Positions 6,926 to 32,210 of a stretch of DNA of 64,000 bases are shown piece after piece. The translations under genes were made by a program, and so were the position numbers. Source of the stretch: Bdellovibrionia bacterium (GTDB taxonomy: Bacteria > Bdellovibrionota > Bdellovibrionia > Bdellovibrionales > JAGQZY01); assembly GCA_030427805.1 (NCBI GenBank), contig JAUICP010000001.1, positions 744,001-808,000 on the forward strand. Reading direction: 5' to 3'. Under the pieces are notes generated by a model. It was not told the DNA's origin and did no database searches. It was given only the letters and a program-made list of their open reading frames with translations. Positions within the stretch are counted from its first letter, which is position 1. Every line of letters starts with the position of its first letter.

Positions 6926-7162
6926 ATGTTTCAGAACTCCAAAAGTCTTCAGGTCGGTCAAAGAATTAGAGCTCGAGCCGTTGAGCTTCGGGGAGAAAAC
7001 AGGCTCATCGTCAGCATCGATGGCGATCTCTACGGAGTCGTTAATTCCAGTCAGAAGAAAATCGACCAAGGACAGTTTATTCACTTGGTTGTGACCCAGG
7101 TAAATCCACTGCAATTCAGTCTCTACGAACCAGATTCAAAAAGTTTTAATCGAGTTATTTAG
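6926..7162 (+). CDS. Small unknown protein
   Basis: A 78-residue protein, probably beta-rich, with a hydrophobic/charged alternation like a small OB or SH3-type barrel (RIRARAVELRGENRLIVSIDGD). AGGAG at 6911-6915 lies 10 bases before the ATG and the gene follows the coiled-coil gene by 13 bases, so the two probably form an operon. Its last 8 bases overlap the convergent gene at 7155-7676. Not assigned to a family. Confidence 0.6.
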   Translation: MFQNSKSLQVGQRIRARAVELRGENRLIVSIDGDLYGVVNSSQKKIDQGQFIHLVVTQVNPLQFSLYEPDSKSFNRVI

Positions 7163-7676
7163 AGCTTTCTCTAATAAATCGCGAGAGGTAGTAGCGAACC
7201 AAGTAATCTAACTTGATGGCTTGTTCCTGATAGGTCCAAATGAGATCGCCAAAGGGGCCCCAGCGGGCATAGAGAAGATCTTCTTGGGCCATTTCCGACT
7301 TTTCTTCACCACTTTGCTGAGGCACGAAATTAGCTCCTGCATATTGGTAGCGAATACTAATAACTCCAGGCTCCTTCATGGAGAAAATTAACTTAAATCC
7401 ATTTCTGAAAAGCATGAAGTCCGCGTGAGTATTGGAGATGCCGTAAATCTTGACCCGTCCAAGATTGGTGCCCTTCATTTGATTGAAGCTAGTGGCGGCC
7501 TGAACCATGGTTGATTTGACATCATCAAGATAGTGGATCGTTTCAGAGAAAAGGTGCTTATCCGGATCAAAGCCTAGGCTAAAGTCGACCATACCCGACT
7601 CTTCCATTTGTTGTTCTTCACGGACTAAATCTTTTATCCAAGTCAACTGATCCATATCCCTCCACTCCTTGCTCAA
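7155..7676 (-). CDS. Unknown cytoplasmic protein
   Basis: A 173-residue protein with no signal peptide or membrane segment and no motif I recognise. The middle (about 60-120) is a mixed alpha/beta pattern and the C-terminus is helical and charged. It lies 69 bases downstream of the ssb-like gene on the same strand and may share its transcript. Its 3' end overlaps the convergent small gene by 8 bases. Confidence 0.65.
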   Translation of the reverse strand: MSKEWRDMDQLTWIKDLVREEQQMEESGMVDFSLGFDPDKHLFSETIHYLDDVKSTMVQAATSFNQMKGTNLGRVKIYGISNTHADFMLFRNGFKLIFSMKEPGVISIRYQYAGANFVPQQSGEEKSEMAQEDLLYARWGPFGDLIWTYQEQAIKLDYLVRYYLSRFIRESSK

Positions 7677-7745
7677 TTAAATCAAAACTTCTAGGAAGTG
7701 GCCTGTCAAGAGTGGGAGGGCTTAGGATTGAGAAAAAGTGCTTAT

Positions 7746-8102
7746 TTAACCGGCTTCTTTTTGTTGCGCGTTACTTCGGCTTAAAAAGTGAACCTGATGG
7801 GCCGTAATTCCGGTCCGCCAGAGGCTTTCTCCTGTGGCGCTCGTGGCCTGGTAATTATCAATCGTACCCTCAATGGCGACGGCTGAACCCGTCTGTAAAT
7901 AGCTACAACAGGTTTCTGCTTTCTTGCCCCAGACAGTGATCGAGTGCCATTGGGTGATTTGAATAAACTCGTCGTTTTCGTTTTTCCGACTCTTTTGGGT
8001 TGCTACCTTGAGGTAGCAGAAAGGTTTTGAGTTTTTTGACCATTTGAGTTCGGGAGTGACACCGAGATGGCCTGCAATAAATACTTTGTTTAATCCGTTC
8101 AT
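7746..8102 (-). CDS. ssb: Single-stranded DNA-binding protein, short form
   Basis: A 118-residue OB-fold SSB. It has the family opening MNGLNKVFIAGHLG, then FCYLKVATQ, the WHSITVWGKKAE segment and GSAVAIEGTIDNY. I chose the ATG at 8102 because AGGAGG lies at 8107-8112 on this strand; a start at 8132 would put that site inside the gene. The protein ends about 10 residues after the OB fold and lacks the long linker and acidic DDDIPF-type tail that recruits replication and repair partners. It may be a secondary, specialised SSB. Confidence 0.88.
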   Translation of the reverse strand: MNGLNKVFIAGHLGVTPELKWSKNSKPFCYLKVATQKSRKNENDEFIQITQWHSITVWGKKAETCCSYLQTGSAVAIEGTIDNYQATSATGESLWRTGITAHQVHFLSRSNAQQKEAG

Positions 8103-8341
8103 TAGAACCTCCTGTTCCCCATTTGTTTTCAAGTTTTGAGCCGAAGCCTTTTTAGTGCTCTTTGCTGCTGAAGATGAATTGTTCAGAAGTCGAACACCCC
8201 CTCAATTTCGTAAACTATATTTACTCCCCCTGTATCAAAATTAGAAAAACGCGCCTTTTTGAGGCGGATAACTCCGATTTTGTCTCGATTCCAGATAACC
8301 TGGGTACAAGGGTCGGTAGGAAAGGACTATAGGGGTTAAGT

Positions 8342-9604
8342 ATGAAGTTTCGTTCTTTAGGAAGGGTTTTTACCCTTTTTGTTTCACTTTTGTTATTACA
8401 GGCCTGCGGAAATCAAGTTATTGATCAAAAACTATTGAATAAGAACTTGTCGGATCAGTCCTCATTGACTGATGATTCTGTTTCGATCTTATCTAATAAT
8501 TATGAACAAGTGATTTTCCGATCGATTTCTGACTCTCGACGTAGGTATTTTTATAGAATTCCGTCCTTAGTCACAGTCAACTCTAATAGGTACATCTTGG
8601 CGTTTGCCGAAGAAAGAGTCGCCAATAATACTGATTCTGGAGATATCAATGTCGTTGTCAAAGTCAGTTACAACGACGGAGATGAGTGGACCAGAAAAAT
8701 TAGAGTCTGCGAGCTCGGAGGTGATACCTGCGGAAACCCTACTGCCGTTGTCGATCAACGTAATGGTCACATTCATCTATTTATGATGTCGAATGATGGA
8801 GATCGAGAACAGTTTCACAAAAATCCAAGTATGCGATTTCGGGAGAGGGACCGGCGAATTCGATATCGAAAATTATGGTTTTCAGGGCGAACACTGAGAA
8901 TGGGCCCACTCTATGATTTGACTGATCCCCACCCGAAGGCTCCACAAGGGTTATATCTAAGTGGTATGAAAATGGATCTTATTGGACCGGGAGTGGGAAT
9001 TCAGTTAAGAAATAATCCTCATAAAAATAGACTCGTCATTCCTTCTGCACATAGAGTTTTTATTTCCGATGATGGAGGAAATTCGTGGCGTCTTGGCGAT
9101 AACTCTTTATCTCGAAGGTCAAGTGAGTCGAGTATTGTAGAGCTAGATAATGGGACGATTTTCAGAAATGACAGGTCATCAGGGGTCAATAAGTGTCTCA
9201 AAGATTCTGAGGGAAATTACCTTCCAGGAAGTCCTCCGTGTCGAAGAAGTTTGTCTTGGAGCCAGAATAAAGGCGAAAGTTTTACAACTCCTTCGATCAG
9301 TAACAGGCTTTATGATCCGATTGCTCAAGGAAGTATGTTGTATTATTCATCAGGAAATATTTTCTTTGCCAACTGTGATTCCACAGTTAATCGAAGAAAT
9401 ATGACAATTCGAAAAACGACCACAGGCAATAACTGGTTTTCTTCAAATCGAATTGATGCTTCATGTGGTTATAGTTCAATGGCCAAAACACGCGATTACC
9501 ATTTAGCAATAATATACGAGAGGAAATCGAGTAATTGGAATCTCAATCCAAGCCAGAAGCCTCAAGACATCGTGTTTAAAAAATTTAGACTCAATGAGCT
9601 CTAG
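8342..9604 (+). CDS. Exo-alpha-sialidase (GH33) lipoprotein
   Basis: A 420-residue sialidase with a lipoprotein signal (LLLQAC, lipidated Cys22). By family knowledge it should release terminal sialic acids from glycoconjugates. The catalytic set is visible. The arginine triad would be Arg72 (YRIP), Arg278 and Arg351/352 (NRRNMTI). The acid/base Asp is 98 or 101, Glu262 lies 16 residues before Arg278 as in known sialidases, Tyr377 is in CGYSS, and Glu393 in IIYE. Asp-box repeats appear at 109-116, 242-249 and about 307-314, the last being degenerate. It should sit on the outer membrane or be exported. It is monocistronic and convergent with the large surface protease gene. Confidence 0.9.
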   Translation: MKFRSLGRVFTLFVSLLLLQACGNQVIDQKLLNKNLSDQSSLTDDSVSILSNNYEQVIFRSISDSRRRYFYRIPSLVTVNSNRYILAFAEERVANNTDSGDINVVVKVSYNDGDEWTRKIRVCELGGDTCGNPTAVVDQRNGHIHLFMMSNDGDREQFHKNPSMRFRERDRRIRYRKLWFSGRTLRMGPLYDLTDPHPKAPQGLYLSGMKMDLIGPGVGIQLRNNPHKNRLVIPSAHRVFISDDGGNSWRLGDNSLSRRSSESSIVELDNGTIFRNDRSSGVNKCLKDSEGNYLPGSPPCRRSLSWSQNKGESFTTPSISNRLYDPIAQGSMLYYSSGNIFFANCDSTVNRRNMTIRKTTTGNNWFSSNRIDASCGYSSMAKTRDYHLAIIYERKSSNWNLNPSQKPQDIVFKKFRLNEL

Positions 9605-24538: not shown

Positions 24539-25375
24539 TTGTCGAATTTAGATCTTGAAAAACCCTGGGGCGAACACACTTTTGTGGCTTTTGACACAGA
24601 GACTTCCGGTAAATACCCATTATCAGCCCAGATTTGCGAAATCGGTGCAGTGAAGTGGCAGGGAGGCAAAGAAGTTGAGAGATTTGAGCGACTGATTAAG
24701 CCTGATGAGCCAATGAATGAAACGGTTATAAAAATCCATGGAATCACCAACGAGATGGTTGCCGATGCGCCGAAAGTCCACGAAGTCATTGGAGAGTTCT
24801 CAGAGTTCATCAAGGGAGCGGTCACCATTGCCCATCATGCCCCCTTTGACCTGGGTTTTTTAGCTCCAGAGCTTGAGTATAAAAAAATTGAGCTCCCCGA
24901 TGAACCGGTTATTTGTTCGAGCCTTCTATCGAGAAGAGTGATCCCAACAAGCCCTAACCATCGCCTGCAGACACTTGTAGAGTACTTGGGTTTAGAGCAG
25001 GGGACGGCTCACCGAGCGGGAGATGACGCCGCAGCTTGCTTACGAGTAACCATAGAGTGTATGAATCGACTTGGCCCTTTGACGAGTCTCAAGGATGTTT
25101 TGGATCGACAGGGGGGGGCCATTCAGTGGTCTCGCTTTTCGATTGACGAACTTATGCAAGAAGAAAAGTGGCGGAACCTTTTGACCGCTATCGAGAATAA
25201 GAAACGGGCTGAAATGATCTATAGTGGGGGCTCTAGGCCAGGGCGCTCAAGGATTGTATATCCTGAAGGTTTAGTCAGAAGTTTGAATGGTGATTTTCTG
25301 GTGGCTAAAGAAGAAGGGCAGATTCAAACTAAGCGCTACTATCTCGAAAAGGTAAAAGAGCTACTTATTGACTGA
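24539..25375 (+). CDS. DnaQ-type 3'-5' exonuclease fused to a WYL-like domain
   Basis: A 278-residue protein. Residues 12-175 are a DEDDh exonuclease: FDTETSG (Asp, Glu), HHAPFDLGF and HRAGDDAAA with the active-site His and Asp. After a linker coded by a run of eight G (25111-25118), residues about 205-275 match a WYL-type ligand-binding fold (AIENKKRAEMIY, SRIVYPEGLV, GDFLVA). It starts at TTG 24539 behind GGGGAGAG. It is probably a DNA-repair or processing exonuclease under ligand control, not the replicative epsilon subunit. The end overlaps lspA by 15 bases. Confidence 0.8.
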   Translation: MSNLDLEKPWGEHTFVAFDTETSGKYPLSAQICEIGAVKWQGGKEVERFERLIKPDEPMNETVIKIHGITNEMVADAPKVHEVIGEFSEFIKGAVTIAHHAPFDLGFLAPELEYKKIELPDEPVICSSLLSRRVIPTSPNHRLQTLVEYLGLEQGTAHRAGDDAAACLRVTIECMNRLGPLTSLKDVLDRQGGAIQWSRFSIDELMQEEKWRNLLTAIENKKRAEMIYSGGSRPGRSRIVYPEGLVRSLNGDFLVAKEEGQIQTKRYYLEKVKELLID

Positions 25376-26380
25376 GGCTTGCTCCTTAGTCTCAATATCT
25401 GTTTCGTCTTCATCAGGACTGATCAAAGGGTCTGTTACAGGTTCATCGGACTGCTCAACTGTCTGCCCGTGTTCTTCTCGCAGTTGTTTTATTTTTTGTG
25501 AGAGTTCCTCTGCAACTTCTTCGAGGTGTTTGAATTCGTCTCCGGCCCGCAATTTAAGGGGTCTTATTTTTCCCTCCATAAGATCATCAAGGAATCTTTC
25601 GAAGGCATAGAGAGGTCCTGCCGTTCTGTGGGATAATATTCGTCCGAGTAGAAAAAGGATCGCGATAAAGAAAAAGCTAACAATAGTAAAAGTAATAATG
25701 AATGGAATGAGGAACTGATCGAGAAGCCGTATATTATTGCCAACGAGATCAATAATCGTGACGCGAAGAAATGTGTAGGAATAGACCGCTGAGATCACAG
25801 AGAATCCGGCTCCGACTCCCATAAGAGTCAGACAATAACGTATTTGAAACTTCGGATTGACCCAATAACGTTTTCTAACATTGTTTGCCGGCCATAGTAT
25901 TTCACTTTCACGAATGAGAGCGAGGACAATCATCGCGTAGCCCACCCACTGGAGAGCATCGGCTAGGTTGAATGCAGGGCTTTTAAACTCTGGTGTTCCC
26001 AGGATTATAAAGTCGACGACATATCCCCAAATGATTCGATCGGTGACATTCCCGAGAATTCCTCCAAGAAGGATGGACATACCTGTCCTCAGCACGAGGG
26101 ATTTTATGGGAAGTAGATATTGGATGATGCCAAAAGAAAAAAGTAAGAAGGCTCCACCCGTCGATAGAGAAACAATTCGCAGAACTGGCGGGAGATCCGA
26201 GAATAAACCGAGCATGGCTCCGTGATTATGATGGAGCACGAGACCCAGGGGACCGTAAAAGTTGATACCCGTGATGTCGACTGCTAAGTATTTTGTTATT
26301 CGATCGATTCCCCAGGTTGCAAAAAGTGGCAGGAGAACGATTAACCATTCGCGCTTTTTCACTAAGGAAAAGTTTATCAA
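25361..26380 (-). CDS. lspA: Lipoprotein signal peptidase (LspA) fused to a HAMP module
   Basis: A 339-residue inner-membrane protein. Residues 1-165 are signal peptidase II, the aspartyl protease that removes lipoprotein signal peptides. It has NHGAMLG, GGILGNVTDR, catalytic Asp123 in YVVDFI and Asp141 in FNLADA. LspA normally ends near residue 165. Here two more membrane helices (about 183-203 and 225-247) and a HAMP-like domain (about 247-300, LRAGDEF) follow, then an acidic tail. The added part resembles the stand-alone HAMP protein at 16419-17090. The gene is convergent with the exonuclease-WYL gene. Confidence 0.9.
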   Translation of the reverse strand: MINFSLVKKREWLIVLLPLFATWGIDRITKYLAVDITGINFYGPLGLVLHHNHGAMLGLFSDLPPVLRIVSLSTGGAFLLFSFGIIQYLLPIKSLVLRTGMSILLGGILGNVTDRIIWGYVVDFIILGTPEFKSPAFNLADALQWVGYAMIVLALIRESEILWPANNVRKRYWVNPKFQIRYCLTLMGVGAGFSVISAVYSYTFLRVTIIDLVGNNIRLLDQFLIPFIITFTIVSFFFIAILFLLGRILSHRTAGPLYAFERFLDDLMEGKIRPLKLRAGDEFKHLEEVAEELSQKIKQLREEHGQTVEQSDEPVTDPLISPDEDETDIETKEQASVNK

Positions 26381-26463: not shown

Positions 26464-27966
26464 TTAATTAGTTTTTCTGAGACTTTTTATACTGGCCTTT
26501 GCGATTCCTGAATAGTCACCAGACAAAGGTGGGTCAAACTCTGCAATTTTGTCATTGATTATAAAGACTTGCTTATCGTACCAAAGGGGAATGGTAGCGA
26601 GCTCGTCATAAGCAATTTGTTGAACTTCATTATAAATTTGTTTTCGTTCATTAAATGGAATTGTCTTCAGACCCAACTCTGTCAATTCATCGAATCGCTT
26701 GTTATTAAAATGTCCTCGGTTTCTACCAGGAGGTGTTTCACTACTGTGTAAGGTCAGGCGGTAAATATCGGGATCGATCGCGCCAATCCACTTCATCAGC
26801 GCCATTTGGAATCGCCCTTTTTTTATATCCTCGTAGTAGATACCCCATTCGTATGATTTCAAATTGACCTTGATTCCAGCCTTCTTAAACAAAAAGCTGA
26901 GTACTTTGGCATTTTCGACGGTGGAGGGATTAGAAGAGGTTTTAAGCTCGACCTCTAGATTTTTGATGCCAGTACGATCAAGAAGTTCCCTGGCCTTCTC
27001 CGGTGAATAAACTTGGGGTGAGAGCTTGTCGTTGAAGAAGGGGTTGCCAGGATTGAGAATTGATGTCGCCTTTTGGCTTAAACTTCGATGTTTGTATTTA
27101 ATAATCTCTTCGAGGTTCAGAGAGTGTTGAATAGCTTTTCGCACGGCTTTTTCTTTGAGGAGCGGGTCCCGATGATTGATCAAAAGATAGGTCATTGAAG
27201 GGCCAGTTCGGGTGAGCACTCTAAATTTCTCTTTGTGGTTTTGTCGGAGATAGTGAACCTTATCCGCAGGAAGGTCATTTTGTATGATATCGATTTCACC
27301 GCGAAGAATTTTTTGAAAACGAGTATTGTCATCTTTGATCAATTTGAATTGGATCGAGTTAAAGAGCTCAGGTTTTTTTGACTTCCTTGAAAGTACTAAG
27401 CTTTGTGGTGAAACACTTTTGTAATCAAAAGGGCCCGAGCCAAAGGGTTTCTTTAAAAAGCCCCCTTCATCGGCTTTAATTTCTTTAGCCGGTATGATTT
27501 TAATTGTGACCAAGTCCTGTAAAAACGGGGCAACCACCTGTTTGAGTTCCAGTTGAAGTTGCCAGTGGCTTTCTGTCTCTGAAACTTTGATGGATTTGAT
27601 ATTTTTCATGGTCGAGTAAAAGGGACTCTGCTGGGACTTGTGGTAGTTAAAACTGTAAAGAAGGTCTTCTTTGTCGACCCGGCGGTTGTTTGAGAATTGG
27701 ATATTTTTAGGAATTGAGAACTGGAAGCGATTTTTATCAATTTGCTCCCAGGTCTCAGCAGCATCTCCGACAATTTTTAGTTCAGAGTCTAGTTTTACCA
27801 AGGATTGAAAAATGAGGTGGGAGAGTCGCTGTCCCATGGCATCGGTCGTTCTTCTTGGATCATAGGTTTGCGGGAAGGCACTGACCCCCACAATTAGCTC
27901 CTGGCATGCCTCTTCGCCAGCTTGGGAGCAGCCTTCAGGCCCTTGAGAACATCCCAGAAAGGCCAA
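26464..27966 (-). CDS. Peptide/oligopeptide-binding lipoprotein (SBP family 5) with an abnormal 5' end
   Basis: About 500 residues resembling the solute-binding component of peptide ABC transporters. The family pattern is visible: RLSHLIFQSLV, NIQFSNNRRVDKEDLLYSF, FGSGPF, LINHRDPLLKEKAVRKAI, IPLWYDK. A lipobox (LAFLGC) lies right at the N-terminus. The only standard start in frame is TTG 27966, giving just five residues before the cysteine. The same frame runs on upstream to 28017 and codes a convincing hydrophobic signal (RLFLFFNIIS), with no ATG, GTG or TTG in that stretch. No permease or ATPase genes are adjacent. Confidence 0.8.
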   Translation of the reverse strand: MAFLGCSQGPEGCSQAGEEACQELIVGVSAFPQTYDPRRTTDAMGQRLSHLIFQSLVKLDSELKIVGDAAETWEQIDKNRFQFSIPKNIQFSNNRRVDKEDLLYSFNYHKSQQSPFYSTMKNIKSIKVSETESHWQLQLELKQVVAPFLQDLVTIKIIPAKEIKADEGGFLKKPFGSGPFDYKSVSPQSLVLSRKSKKPELFNSIQFKLIKDDNTRFQKILRGEIDIIQNDLPADKVHYLRQNHKEKFRVLTRTGPSMTYLLINHRDPLLKEKAVRKAIQHSLNLEEIIKYKHRSLSQKATSILNPGNPFFNDKLSPQVYSPEKARELLDRTGIKNLEVELKTSSNPSTVENAKVLSFLFKKAGIKVNLKSYEWGIYYEDIKKGRFQMALMKWIGAIDPDIYRLTLHSSETPPGRNRGHFNNKRFDELTELGLKTIPFNERKQIYNEVQQIAYDELATIPLWYDKQVFIINDKIAEFDPPLSGDYSGIAKASIKSLRKTN

Positions 27967-28077
27967 AATCGAGATAATGTTAAAGAAAAGAAAAAGTCTA
28001 AAGCAATTTATGGGATTTCACCTAACGCAATATATAATCTTCCTGATTTCACCGAATAAAAGGTCTATACTTTAAAT

Positions 28078-29535
28078 ATGACTCATTTACTTTATATTGC
28101 AACAGCCAGCCTGATTCTCTTCACAACATTATTGCCAACGAGCGCCCAAGCCGATTCAAAAACATGGCATCGGTCCATGCGCCAAGCTCTGCAAAACGAA
28201 GTCACTTCTTCGGGACTGACAAAGAGCGGATTGGGAATTTGGGTGGGCGAAGTTAAGGGTGAAGAGCTATTACCGATTTACACTCTTAATAATAATAAAC
28301 AGTTTGTGCCAGCTTCGTTGAGTAAGATACCAACGGCGGCAGCCGTATTGAAAAGTTTTGCGCCGGATATTGTTTTTAAGACCGAGGTTCTAGCGACGAC
28401 CCCAGTGCAAAATGGTGTACTTAGAGGTGATATCTTTTTGCGAGGTGGTGGCGACCCGGCTTTCGTATCCGAAAAAATGTGGTTTTTGGTCAACGAATTG
28501 CGACGGGAAGGAATCACTGCCATCGCTGGTGATTTAATCGTCGACGATAATCGCTTTGATAAAAAGAGAAGTAGTCGTCGCACGACGGATCCAGTGGATC
28601 GGGCCTATGATGCGCCCATTGGAGCGCTCTCATTCAATTGGAATTCTGTTAATGTTTATGTCCGGCCCGGTGACAAGGTTGGCGAGCGAGCAAAGGTCAT
28701 CATTGACCCTGTAAATGACTACATCCAAGTGAGAAATACGGCTAAAACAAAGTCTGCCGGAAGACGAACGATCCAAGTCAGTCGCAAGAGAATTAATTCC
28801 AGAGACGTTATAGAGGTCTCAGGAAAAATCGCACTCGGTGCCGATGAAATGGTTTCTTATAAAAACATTACCGAGCCCGATATTTGGACGGGCTACAACT
28901 TTAAAGAATTTCTCAGACAAAGAGGGATCGTCGTTCAAGGTCAGGTGAAGGCGGGAGTGACTCCTGCAGCAGCCCGAATTTTAGCAGTCAATGAGAGTAA
29001 GCCATTACGTCAGATCATTGCAGATATGTCGAAGTTTTCGAATAACTTTGTGGCTGAAATGCTGACTAAAAATCTAGCTGCTGAGGCCGGTGAGAGCCCA
29101 GCGACTCTTGGTCGAGGTGTTGAGCTTATTAATAATAAATTGGTATCGATGGGCTTGAGTCGCAATACTTTTGAATTTAACAACCCGTCAGGATTGAGCA
29201 CGGATAATAAATTTACTCCGGGGCAAATATCAACACTTCTGTTTGCAGCCCATAAAGATTTTAGTTTCTATCCGGAGTTTCTGACGGCTTTGCCCATTGC
29301 TGGGGTAGACGGAACACTTAAAAAAAGGATGAGCAACTCAACAGCCGAGCGATGGGTTCGGGCCAAAACGGGGCTTCTCAATGGTGTTGCCGCTTTGGCT
29401 GGATATGCCGGTAGACCCGATGGAACTCTTATTATTTTTTCATTTATTTACAATGGGTCCCAATCACTGAGTCACGTGAGGAATACATTTGATCAAATGG
29501 CCGTTCAGTTAACTTCAGGAGCGACTCTCCAGTGA
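28078..29535 (+). CDS. dacB: D-alanyl-D-alanine carboxypeptidase/endopeptidase, PBP4 (DacB)
   Basis: A 485-residue exported serine peptidase (signal peptide about 1-25, SAQA/DS). The three active-site motifs are SLSK (Ser80, Lys83), SNN (in SKFSNNF) and KTG (in RAKTGLLNG), in the order and spacing of class C penicillin-binding proteins such as PBP4. It should trim peptide stems and cut cross-links in peptidoglycan. It overlaps the following lytic transglycosylase by 4 bases, pairing two wall-cutting enzymes. Confidence 0.95.
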   Translation: MTHLLYIATASLILFTTLLPTSAQADSKTWHRSMRQALQNEVTSSGLTKSGLGIWVGEVKGEELLPIYTLNNNKQFVPASLSKIPTAAAVLKSFAPDIVFKTEVLATTPVQNGVLRGDIFLRGGGDPAFVSEKMWFLVNELRREGITAIAGDLIVDDNRFDKKRSSRRTTDPVDRAYDAPIGALSFNWNSVNVYVRPGDKVGERAKVIIDPVNDYIQVRNTAKTKSAGRRTIQVSRKRINSRDVIEVSGKIALGADEMVSYKNITEPDIWTGYNFKEFLRQRGIVVQGQVKAGVTPAAARILAVNESKPLRQIIADMSKFSNNFVAEMLTKNLAAEAGESPATLGRGVELINNKLVSMGLSRNTFEFNNPSGLSTDNKFTPGQISTLLFAAHKDFSFYPEFLTALPIAGVDGTLKKRMSNSTAERWVRAKTGLLNGVAALAGYAGRPDGTLIIFSFIYNGSQSLSHVRNTFDQMAVQLTSGATLQ

Positions 29536-31352: not shown

Positions 31353-32210
31353 ATGTCGTTCGTTGGTCAGACACCAATTGCGCTTTCTCGCGCGTCACTG
31401 AGTTTAAAAACGAAACTCATCTTGAGTCTTGGCTTCTTGCTTTTTACTGTTCAAGCGCTCAATATCTTTATTTTTAATCCTGAATTAGACTCACATAACT
31501 TAGTTCTCATTTCGTTAACTTCAATACTTGTTCTATTTTCAGTTTATCTATTGGTCAGCTACTTGGTCGCAAGACCCATCAGAAAGCTTCGACGTTTTAC
31601 CGATCAAATTAAGAAGGGGGATTGGGACCAGAAGCTGGAGATTAATAGCCAGGACGAGTTTGAAAGCCTCGGTTTGAGTATCAAGAGTCTACTTAAAGAT
31701 ATGAAAACAGATGGCCTCACGGGCCTCTATAACCGCAAATACTTCGATTGTAGGCTGGAGAGTTCCTATCGCAAGGCGAGTAGAAAAGAAAGCCTCCTCG
31801 GGCTGATCTTGATCGACATCGATAACTTCAAAAGAATCAATGATAACTACGGACATATTCAAGGGGACCGTGTTTTAAAAAGAATGGGGCGAATCTTAAA
31901 CGAAGAGTCTCGAAAAAAAGACATCGCTTTTCGCTACGGTGGAGAGGAGTTAGGTGTACTTGTTTATGATCTAGGGGCAGAAGATTTGCTGATGCTCGCA
32001 GAGCGAATTAGAAAGCGAATCGAGCAACAAGAATTTCAGTTTCAAGGACAGCTTATAAAAGTCACCAGTTCTCTAGGTTGCAGCCATCTTACTCCTCGAT
32101 TTAAAAGTCCAGAAGCCTTCGTGCAGGCGGCAGACTTCGCTCTTTATCAAGCGAAGTCTCAAGGAAAAAACCGCAGTTTAATAGCTGAATTTAAAAAGCT
32201 AGGGGCCTAG
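31353..32210 (+). CDS. Diguanylate cyclase with HAMP domain
   Basis: A 285-residue membrane protein with two helices (about 22-42 and 50-72), a HAMP domain (about 72-118, NSQDEFESL) and a GGDEF domain. The catalytic loop is GGEEL (196-200), the metal-binding Asp is in LIDIDNFK, and an RxxD inhibitory site (RKKD, 187-190) sits 5 residues before it. It should make c-di-GMP from two GTP with product inhibition. The short loop between helices offers little room for a periplasmic sensor. Its end overlaps the convergent endonuclease gene by 4 bases. Confidence 0.93.
   Translation: MSFVGQTPIALSRASLSLKTKLILSLGFLLFTVQALNIFIFNPELDSHNLVLISLTSILVLFSVYLLVSYLVARPIRKLRRFTDQIKKGDWDQKLEINSQDEFESLGLSIKSLLKDMKTDGLTGLYNRKYFDCRLESSYRKASRKESLLGLILIDIDNFKRINDNYGHIQGDRVLKRMGRILNEESRKKDIAFRYGGEELGVLVYDLGAEDLLMLAERIRKRIEQQEFQFQGQLIKVTSSLGCSHLTPRFKSPEAFVQAADFALYQAKSQGKNRSLIAEFKKLGA

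Follow-up and report, generated by a model that had tools for sequence, protein, structure and literature searches.

Sortases, exosortases, and myxosortases are membrane peptidases whose genes lie beside, or co-occur with, substrates that bear a short motif of their own. The protein described here would resemble them in the combination of a membrane peptidase with a matching substrate motif, but it belongs to an unrelated enzyme family, and its motif is an N-terminal lipobox rather than a C-terminal tag. The lipobox is usually regarded as an almost universal rule, and LspA (SPase II; MEROPS A8; PF01252) as a single constitutive enzyme. According to the consensus, canonical LspA requires a small residue at position −1 of the lipobox (PMC6952399, PMC8048626), and 14 residues are conserved in LspA (PMC6952399). 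In a literature search, no description of an LspA-HAMP fusion and no paper with an FQNC lipobox were found.

The fusion gene lies on the minus strand (25361..26380) of the window, the 64,000-nucleotide stretch of Bdellovibrionia DNA analyzed here, and encodes 339 amino acids from a TTG start. A GTG at codon 7 (base 26362), which would give 333 amino acids, may be the true start, since orthologues begin at an MKK(R/K)(D/E)W motif. The ORF was confirmed, and, as the earlier note had claimed, it encodes a complete LspA domain followed by two membrane helices and a HAMP-like domain. The LspA (Peptidase_A8) domain (residues 9–160; 25901..26356, minus strand) was assigned by Pfam, the structure model, PDB matches, and residue comparison; it has the LspA fold, with four transmembrane helices and the beta-cradle. 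The PF01252 match covered residues 21–156 (6.3e-21; 75.5 bits against a cut-off of 25). In Foldseek, the significant PDB matches of the model were to LspA only (5dir, 6ryo, and 6ryp; target TM-score 0.70–0.73, probability 1.00). All 14 hallmark residues were present (D26, K30, N52, G54, G107, N111, D114, R115, V121, D123, F137, N138, A140, and D141), and residue alignment placed the catalytic aspartates where they had been proposed, at Asp123 (VVDF; 26012..26014, minus strand) and Asp141 (FNLAD; 25958..25960, minus strand). However, unlike canonical LspA, the fusion missed the NCBIfam lspA equivalog cut-off (TIGR00077; 44.5 versus 73.95 bits) and carried an additional 2TM-HAMP module and acidic tail.

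The AlphaFold2 monomer model (mean pLDDT 83) showed the LspA helices, two long extra helices, and the AS1 and AS2 helices. Behind the LspA part, helices were predicted at residues 176–213, 217–268, and 285–303, with a short connector between the last two. TM5 and TM6 span residues 176–247 (25640..25855, minus strand), the HAMP-like domain covers residues 248–302 (25475..25639, minus strand; SHRxAGPLYAFERFL ... LKLRAGDEFKHLEE), and the disordered C-terminal tail (25364..25474, minus strand) had a pLDDT below 50 at residues 320–339. In both the sequence and the model, no output domain was found behind the HAMP-like domain, only the acidic tail. PF00672 matched neither the window protein nor any of 24 orthologues in Pfam, so the expected HAMP profile match failed; by hhalign, however, the family profile of the C-terminal module aligned with a genuine HAMP domain encoded in the window's genome (probability 93.5, E 2.3e-7). 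It also aligned, over residues 158–306, with the phylum's stand-alone 2TM-HAMP proteins (E 6.1e-24), and Pfam recognized HAMP in 7 of 10 of the latter. Because of these two profile matches, we accept the tail as remotely homologous to HAMP. It shares with HAMP signaling proteins the transmembrane helix running into AS1, the Pro after the membrane, the connector, the D-E/F motif, and AS2, but it has no kinase, MCP, or cyclase output, and its partner domain is a protease. The stand-alone proteins, which lack a peptidase domain, are likely the donors of the tail. They are 150–200 amino acids long without an output domain, and several copies per genome occur in many Bdellovibrionota (L036–L042, L048–L050). 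Roughly 5 kb away from the fusion, at 31554–31694 on the plus strand, another HAMP domain was observed in a 2TM-HAMP-GGDEF-like protein.

Intact orthologues were found, alongside a separate ordinary LspA, in approximately 123 of 144 genomes of the class Bdellovibrionia, most of them scored by full-length profile matches and a fetched subset checked at the residue level, and in nearly every Bdellovibrionales genome. Outside the class, profile matches were patchy in Bacteriovorax-type and other Bdellovibrionota families. Among the named organisms with the fusion, inside and outside the class, are Bdellovibrio bacteriovorus, B. qaytius, and Bacteriovorax. An assembly error joining two genes was excluded, as the same fusion recurs in dozens of genera and is present on chromosomes assembled as a single contig. 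In the phylogenetic tree, one branch separated fused from free LspA (support 100/99), a split compatible with a single fusion event. Some genomes carried a second, divergent LspA-HAMP copy (L043 in G077, L184 in G254, and L191 in G348), and in some genomes free-standing LspA fell into a third clade, deeply separated and with an EN.GAFLS motif (L035, L176, L237, and L240).

A separate canonical LspA is encoded in the window's genome (G000:C1:524135-524611), of which the fusion is a paralogue; the idea that the fusion is the cell's only LspA was rejected, and general lipoprotein maturation hence need not be under its control. The earlier note had proposed a regulated LspA, with lipoprotein maturation responding to, or reporting on, membrane state; HAMP would then switch ordinary maturation. 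The fusion itself stood as real, conserved, and order-wide, the HAMP-like domain sits directly behind the membrane protease in the model, and homologous stand-alone 2TM-HAMP proteins exist in the phylum. Nevertheless, the canonical LspA, whose gene often adjoins an Lgt gene in relatives, can handle the canonical class, and linkage ties the fusion gene to a noncanonical lipobox class. HAMP control of general maturation is thus quite unlikely, and a regulated LspA, although possible, takes second place to the better supported reading, a peptidase dedicated to a new class of lipobox.

Comparison of fused and free LspA of the phylum showed three differences near the active site. After the second catalytic Asp, Q144 was present in 25/29 fused sequences versus I in 18/18 free ones, and W145 in 28/29 versus V in 15/18; after the conserved N-x-G loop, M or I occupied position 56 in 24/29 fused sequences (M in the window protein) versus A or F in 18/18. 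These substitutions fit, without proving, a pocket remodeled for bulky lipobox residues. The active-site residues were intact in 136 of 145 fusion sequences; the remaining nine comprised one truncated copy, with most of the others from reduced-genome lineages.

In the FQNC lipobox, Asn occupies −1, Gln −2, and Phe −3. The hydrophobic-[FY]xxC pattern had 37 matches in the window's genome, mostly [FY]QNC, versus 8 in the control, the sequence read backward; as the patterns need two to four fixed hydrophobic positions, true signals are undercounted. Among 22 distinct [FY]QNC places, 21 were N-terminal signals with a basic start, a hydrophobic core, and a long secreted remainder, giving at least 21 predicted [FY]QNC lipoproteins, as against the ordinary L[AS][GAS]C. 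Ordinary lipoboxes were likewise common, so two lipobox classes coexist in this genome. No FQNC lipoprotein was detected within the 64-kb window itself. Ten of the [FY]QNC proteins included astacin protease, polysaccharide lyase 14, BD-FAE/alpha-beta hydrolase, RTX repeat, and SOD-like domains. Several of the sampled candidate substrates are predicted exoenzymes and surface proteins, a domain set that would be expected for the outward-acting proteins of a predator.

Across the 123 genomes with an intact fusion, FQNC had 1585 matches versus 180 in the control (4.08 versus 0.46 per Mb, approximately 9-fold). In ten reduced genomes with a degenerate or absent fusion, the counts were 20 versus 17 (1.28 versus 1.09 per Mb), whereas size-matched intact genomes had 115 versus 11 (3.82 versus 0.37 per Mb; reduced versus size-matched, Mann-Whitney p 2e-4, Fisher p 1.5e-6), although the ten may represent one or two independent losses only. 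Co-occurrence at the class level is phylogenetically confounded, because the fusion and FQNC are both class-wide traits. The main counter-evidence to a dedicated peptidase came from eleven Bdellovibrionia genomes with no detected fusion, in which FQNC was still enriched (94 versus 18 in the control); most of these are incomplete, and two (G003 and G247) are listed as 98–99% complete.

Outside Bdellovibrionia, a lipoprotein gene with an [FYL][QNTH][NQH]C signal lay within two genes of the fusion in 24 of 41 loci (23/40 by genome, as L135 and L159 belong to one genome), versus none among 382 ORFs in randomly chosen regions of f12 genomes that have the fusion; in the other 17 loci, no such lipoprotein adjoined the fusion. 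The signals of the secreted neighbors ended in GYNQC, AFNQC, SFNHC, GYTHC, TYTQC, TYQNC, or FQNC. Of 30 lipoprotein signals near the fusion, 23 had H, Q, or N at −1, whereas 14 of the 20 signals detected in random f12 regions had S, G, or A there (Fisher p 6e-6). Lipoproteins that are linked to the fusion or co-occur with it carry F/Y-Q/N/T-N/H/Q-C, without the small −1 residue of canonical L[AS][GAS]C. Part of the linkage signal is shared ancestry of one operon. However, linkage recurred in families f12, f14, f22, and f26: in f14, f22, f26, and those f12 genomes whose copy is Bdellovibrionia-like (L161 and L162), the lipoproteins differ yet share this type of motif, and f22 showed a one-gene pair in which an FQNC|GRT lipoprotein adjoins the fusion. 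Genome-wide in f12, the variant [FY][NT][QH]C was not clearly enriched, and the variant class there therefore seems limited to a few fusion-linked genes.

Taken together, the linkage and the motif suggest a separate maturation route for surface proteins. From these sequence data, we assign a probability of roughly 0.6 to the reading that the fusion is a second type II signal peptidase, an LspA paralogue dedicated to [FY]-[QNT]-[NQH]-C prolipoproteins (FQNC in this lineage). We infer cleavage of FQNC by the fusion, dimerization, and any regulation as follows. An FQNC precursor would be exported, and an Lgt would then attach lipid to its Cys; the remodeled pocket of LspA would accommodate a bulky polar residue at both −1 and −2 as well as an aromatic one at −3, and D123 and D141 would cut before the lipobox Cys. 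On the cytoplasmic side, the two extra helices and HAMP would dimerize the enzyme, and the tail, presumably a dimerization or regulatory module, would link it to a partner or state in the cytoplasm. FQNC might also be a substrate of the ordinary LspA. A broader model, which we put forward tentatively, has two parallel routes in Bdellovibrionota: Lgt and LspA for L[AS][GAS]C; and the HAMP-tailed LspA, possibly with a second Lgt, for FQNC, which would mark predator surface and degradative proteins, HAMP tying their processing to cytoplasmic signaling (in some lineages c-di-GMP). If a second LspA with its own lipobox is confirmed, substrate classes would be separable at the signal-peptide step, and prediction tools that rely on [LVI][ASTVI][GAS]C may be overlooking dozens of surface enzymes in each genome of a bacterial predator. 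The fusion would also offer a concrete way into the study of a protease coupled to HAMP.

With regard to possible cytoplasmic partners, an REC-GGDEF gene lies 4–65 bp upstream of the fusion in six loci (L092, L108, and L113–L116) and directly upstream in L104, making seven loci, three of which carry the assignment from a Pfam run; the two genes probably form one operon. A CheY-like gene is two genes upstream of the fusion in L118/L183. Such neighbors would suit a signal transducer in which the LspA domain binds prolipoproteins or signal peptides and HAMP relays occupancy to a partner, for example, an REC-GGDEF diguanylate cyclase, with catalysis secondary. Degenerate copies point the same way, as the reduced genomes G064, G073, G089, and G097 keep the 6TM-HAMP architecture after loss of the active-site residues, and HAMP is better conserved than LspA in the three reduced-genome copies compared. 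In intact orthologues, however, the LspA part is more conserved (~75%) than the tail (~60%), and the large majority of active sites described above are intact; moreover, no output domain is fused, and a signaling gene adjoins the fusion in a minority of loci, the window not among them. We therefore regard a primary role in signal transduction as unlikely. Pseudo-peptidase LspA-HAMP copies that have lost active-site residues and kept HAMP were observed in reduced Bdellovibrionales genomes at L045, L046, L047, L233, and L142.

Producer myxobacteria carry extra LspA copies, raising the alternative that the fusion is a spare LspA for resistance to LspA-directed antibiotics, with a decorative tail. 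LspA is indeed the target of globomycin and myxovirescin (PMC6952399). The near-universal presence of the fusion in the class, the lack of any resistance context seen at the loci, and the linkage to particular lipoproteins nevertheless make this explanation very improbable.

Most Bdellovibrionales have two Lgt genes, one of approximately 260 amino acids, often beside canonical lspA in relatives, and one of 350–440 amino acids; those of the window's genome are at G000:C7:488061-488789 and G000:C3:385709-386734, and one Lgt is shown for the reduced genome G056. A second Lgt as the obligate partner of the fusion was unsupported, as G058 has one detected Lgt yet 36 FQNC matches, and G003 has two Lgts and no detected fusion.

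In Bdellovibrionia, the fusion belongs to a conserved block with a divergent dacB and a convergent DnaQ-like gene, often with an SBP_bac_5 gene upstream. In the window, the RNase_T/DnaQ-like exonuclease gene (24539..25375, plus strand; ORF and Pfam) overlaps the 3′ end of the fusion by 15 bp, and the dacB-type D-Ala-D-Ala carboxypeptidase gene (Peptidase_S13 by Pfam; 28078..29535, plus strand) has counterparts in 42 of 56 related loci. Upstream of the fusion lies the gene of a peptide-binding SBP_bac_5 lipoprotein (26464..27966, minus strand; Pfam) with an ordinary LAFLGC lipobox, a family found in 14 of the 56 loci. Its signal peptide runs upstream of the TTG codon (27966–28060, minus strand) with no in-frame ATG, GTG, or TTG, which makes a rare start codon, or else an error, likely.

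In Bacteriovorax-type genomes, a conserved operon encodes a CxxCH protein, an FNQC lipoprotein, a protein of approximately 500 amino acids with an N-terminal RRDFL motif, a YNQC lipoprotein, and then LspA-HAMP (L132 2894–8831; homologues in L134–L136, L138, L145–L147, L150–L152, and L158). Three members of the L132 operon had no Pfam match. At L149, the signal of a fusion neighbor (7043–8467) ends in FTAFQNF, with the Cys replaced by Phe.
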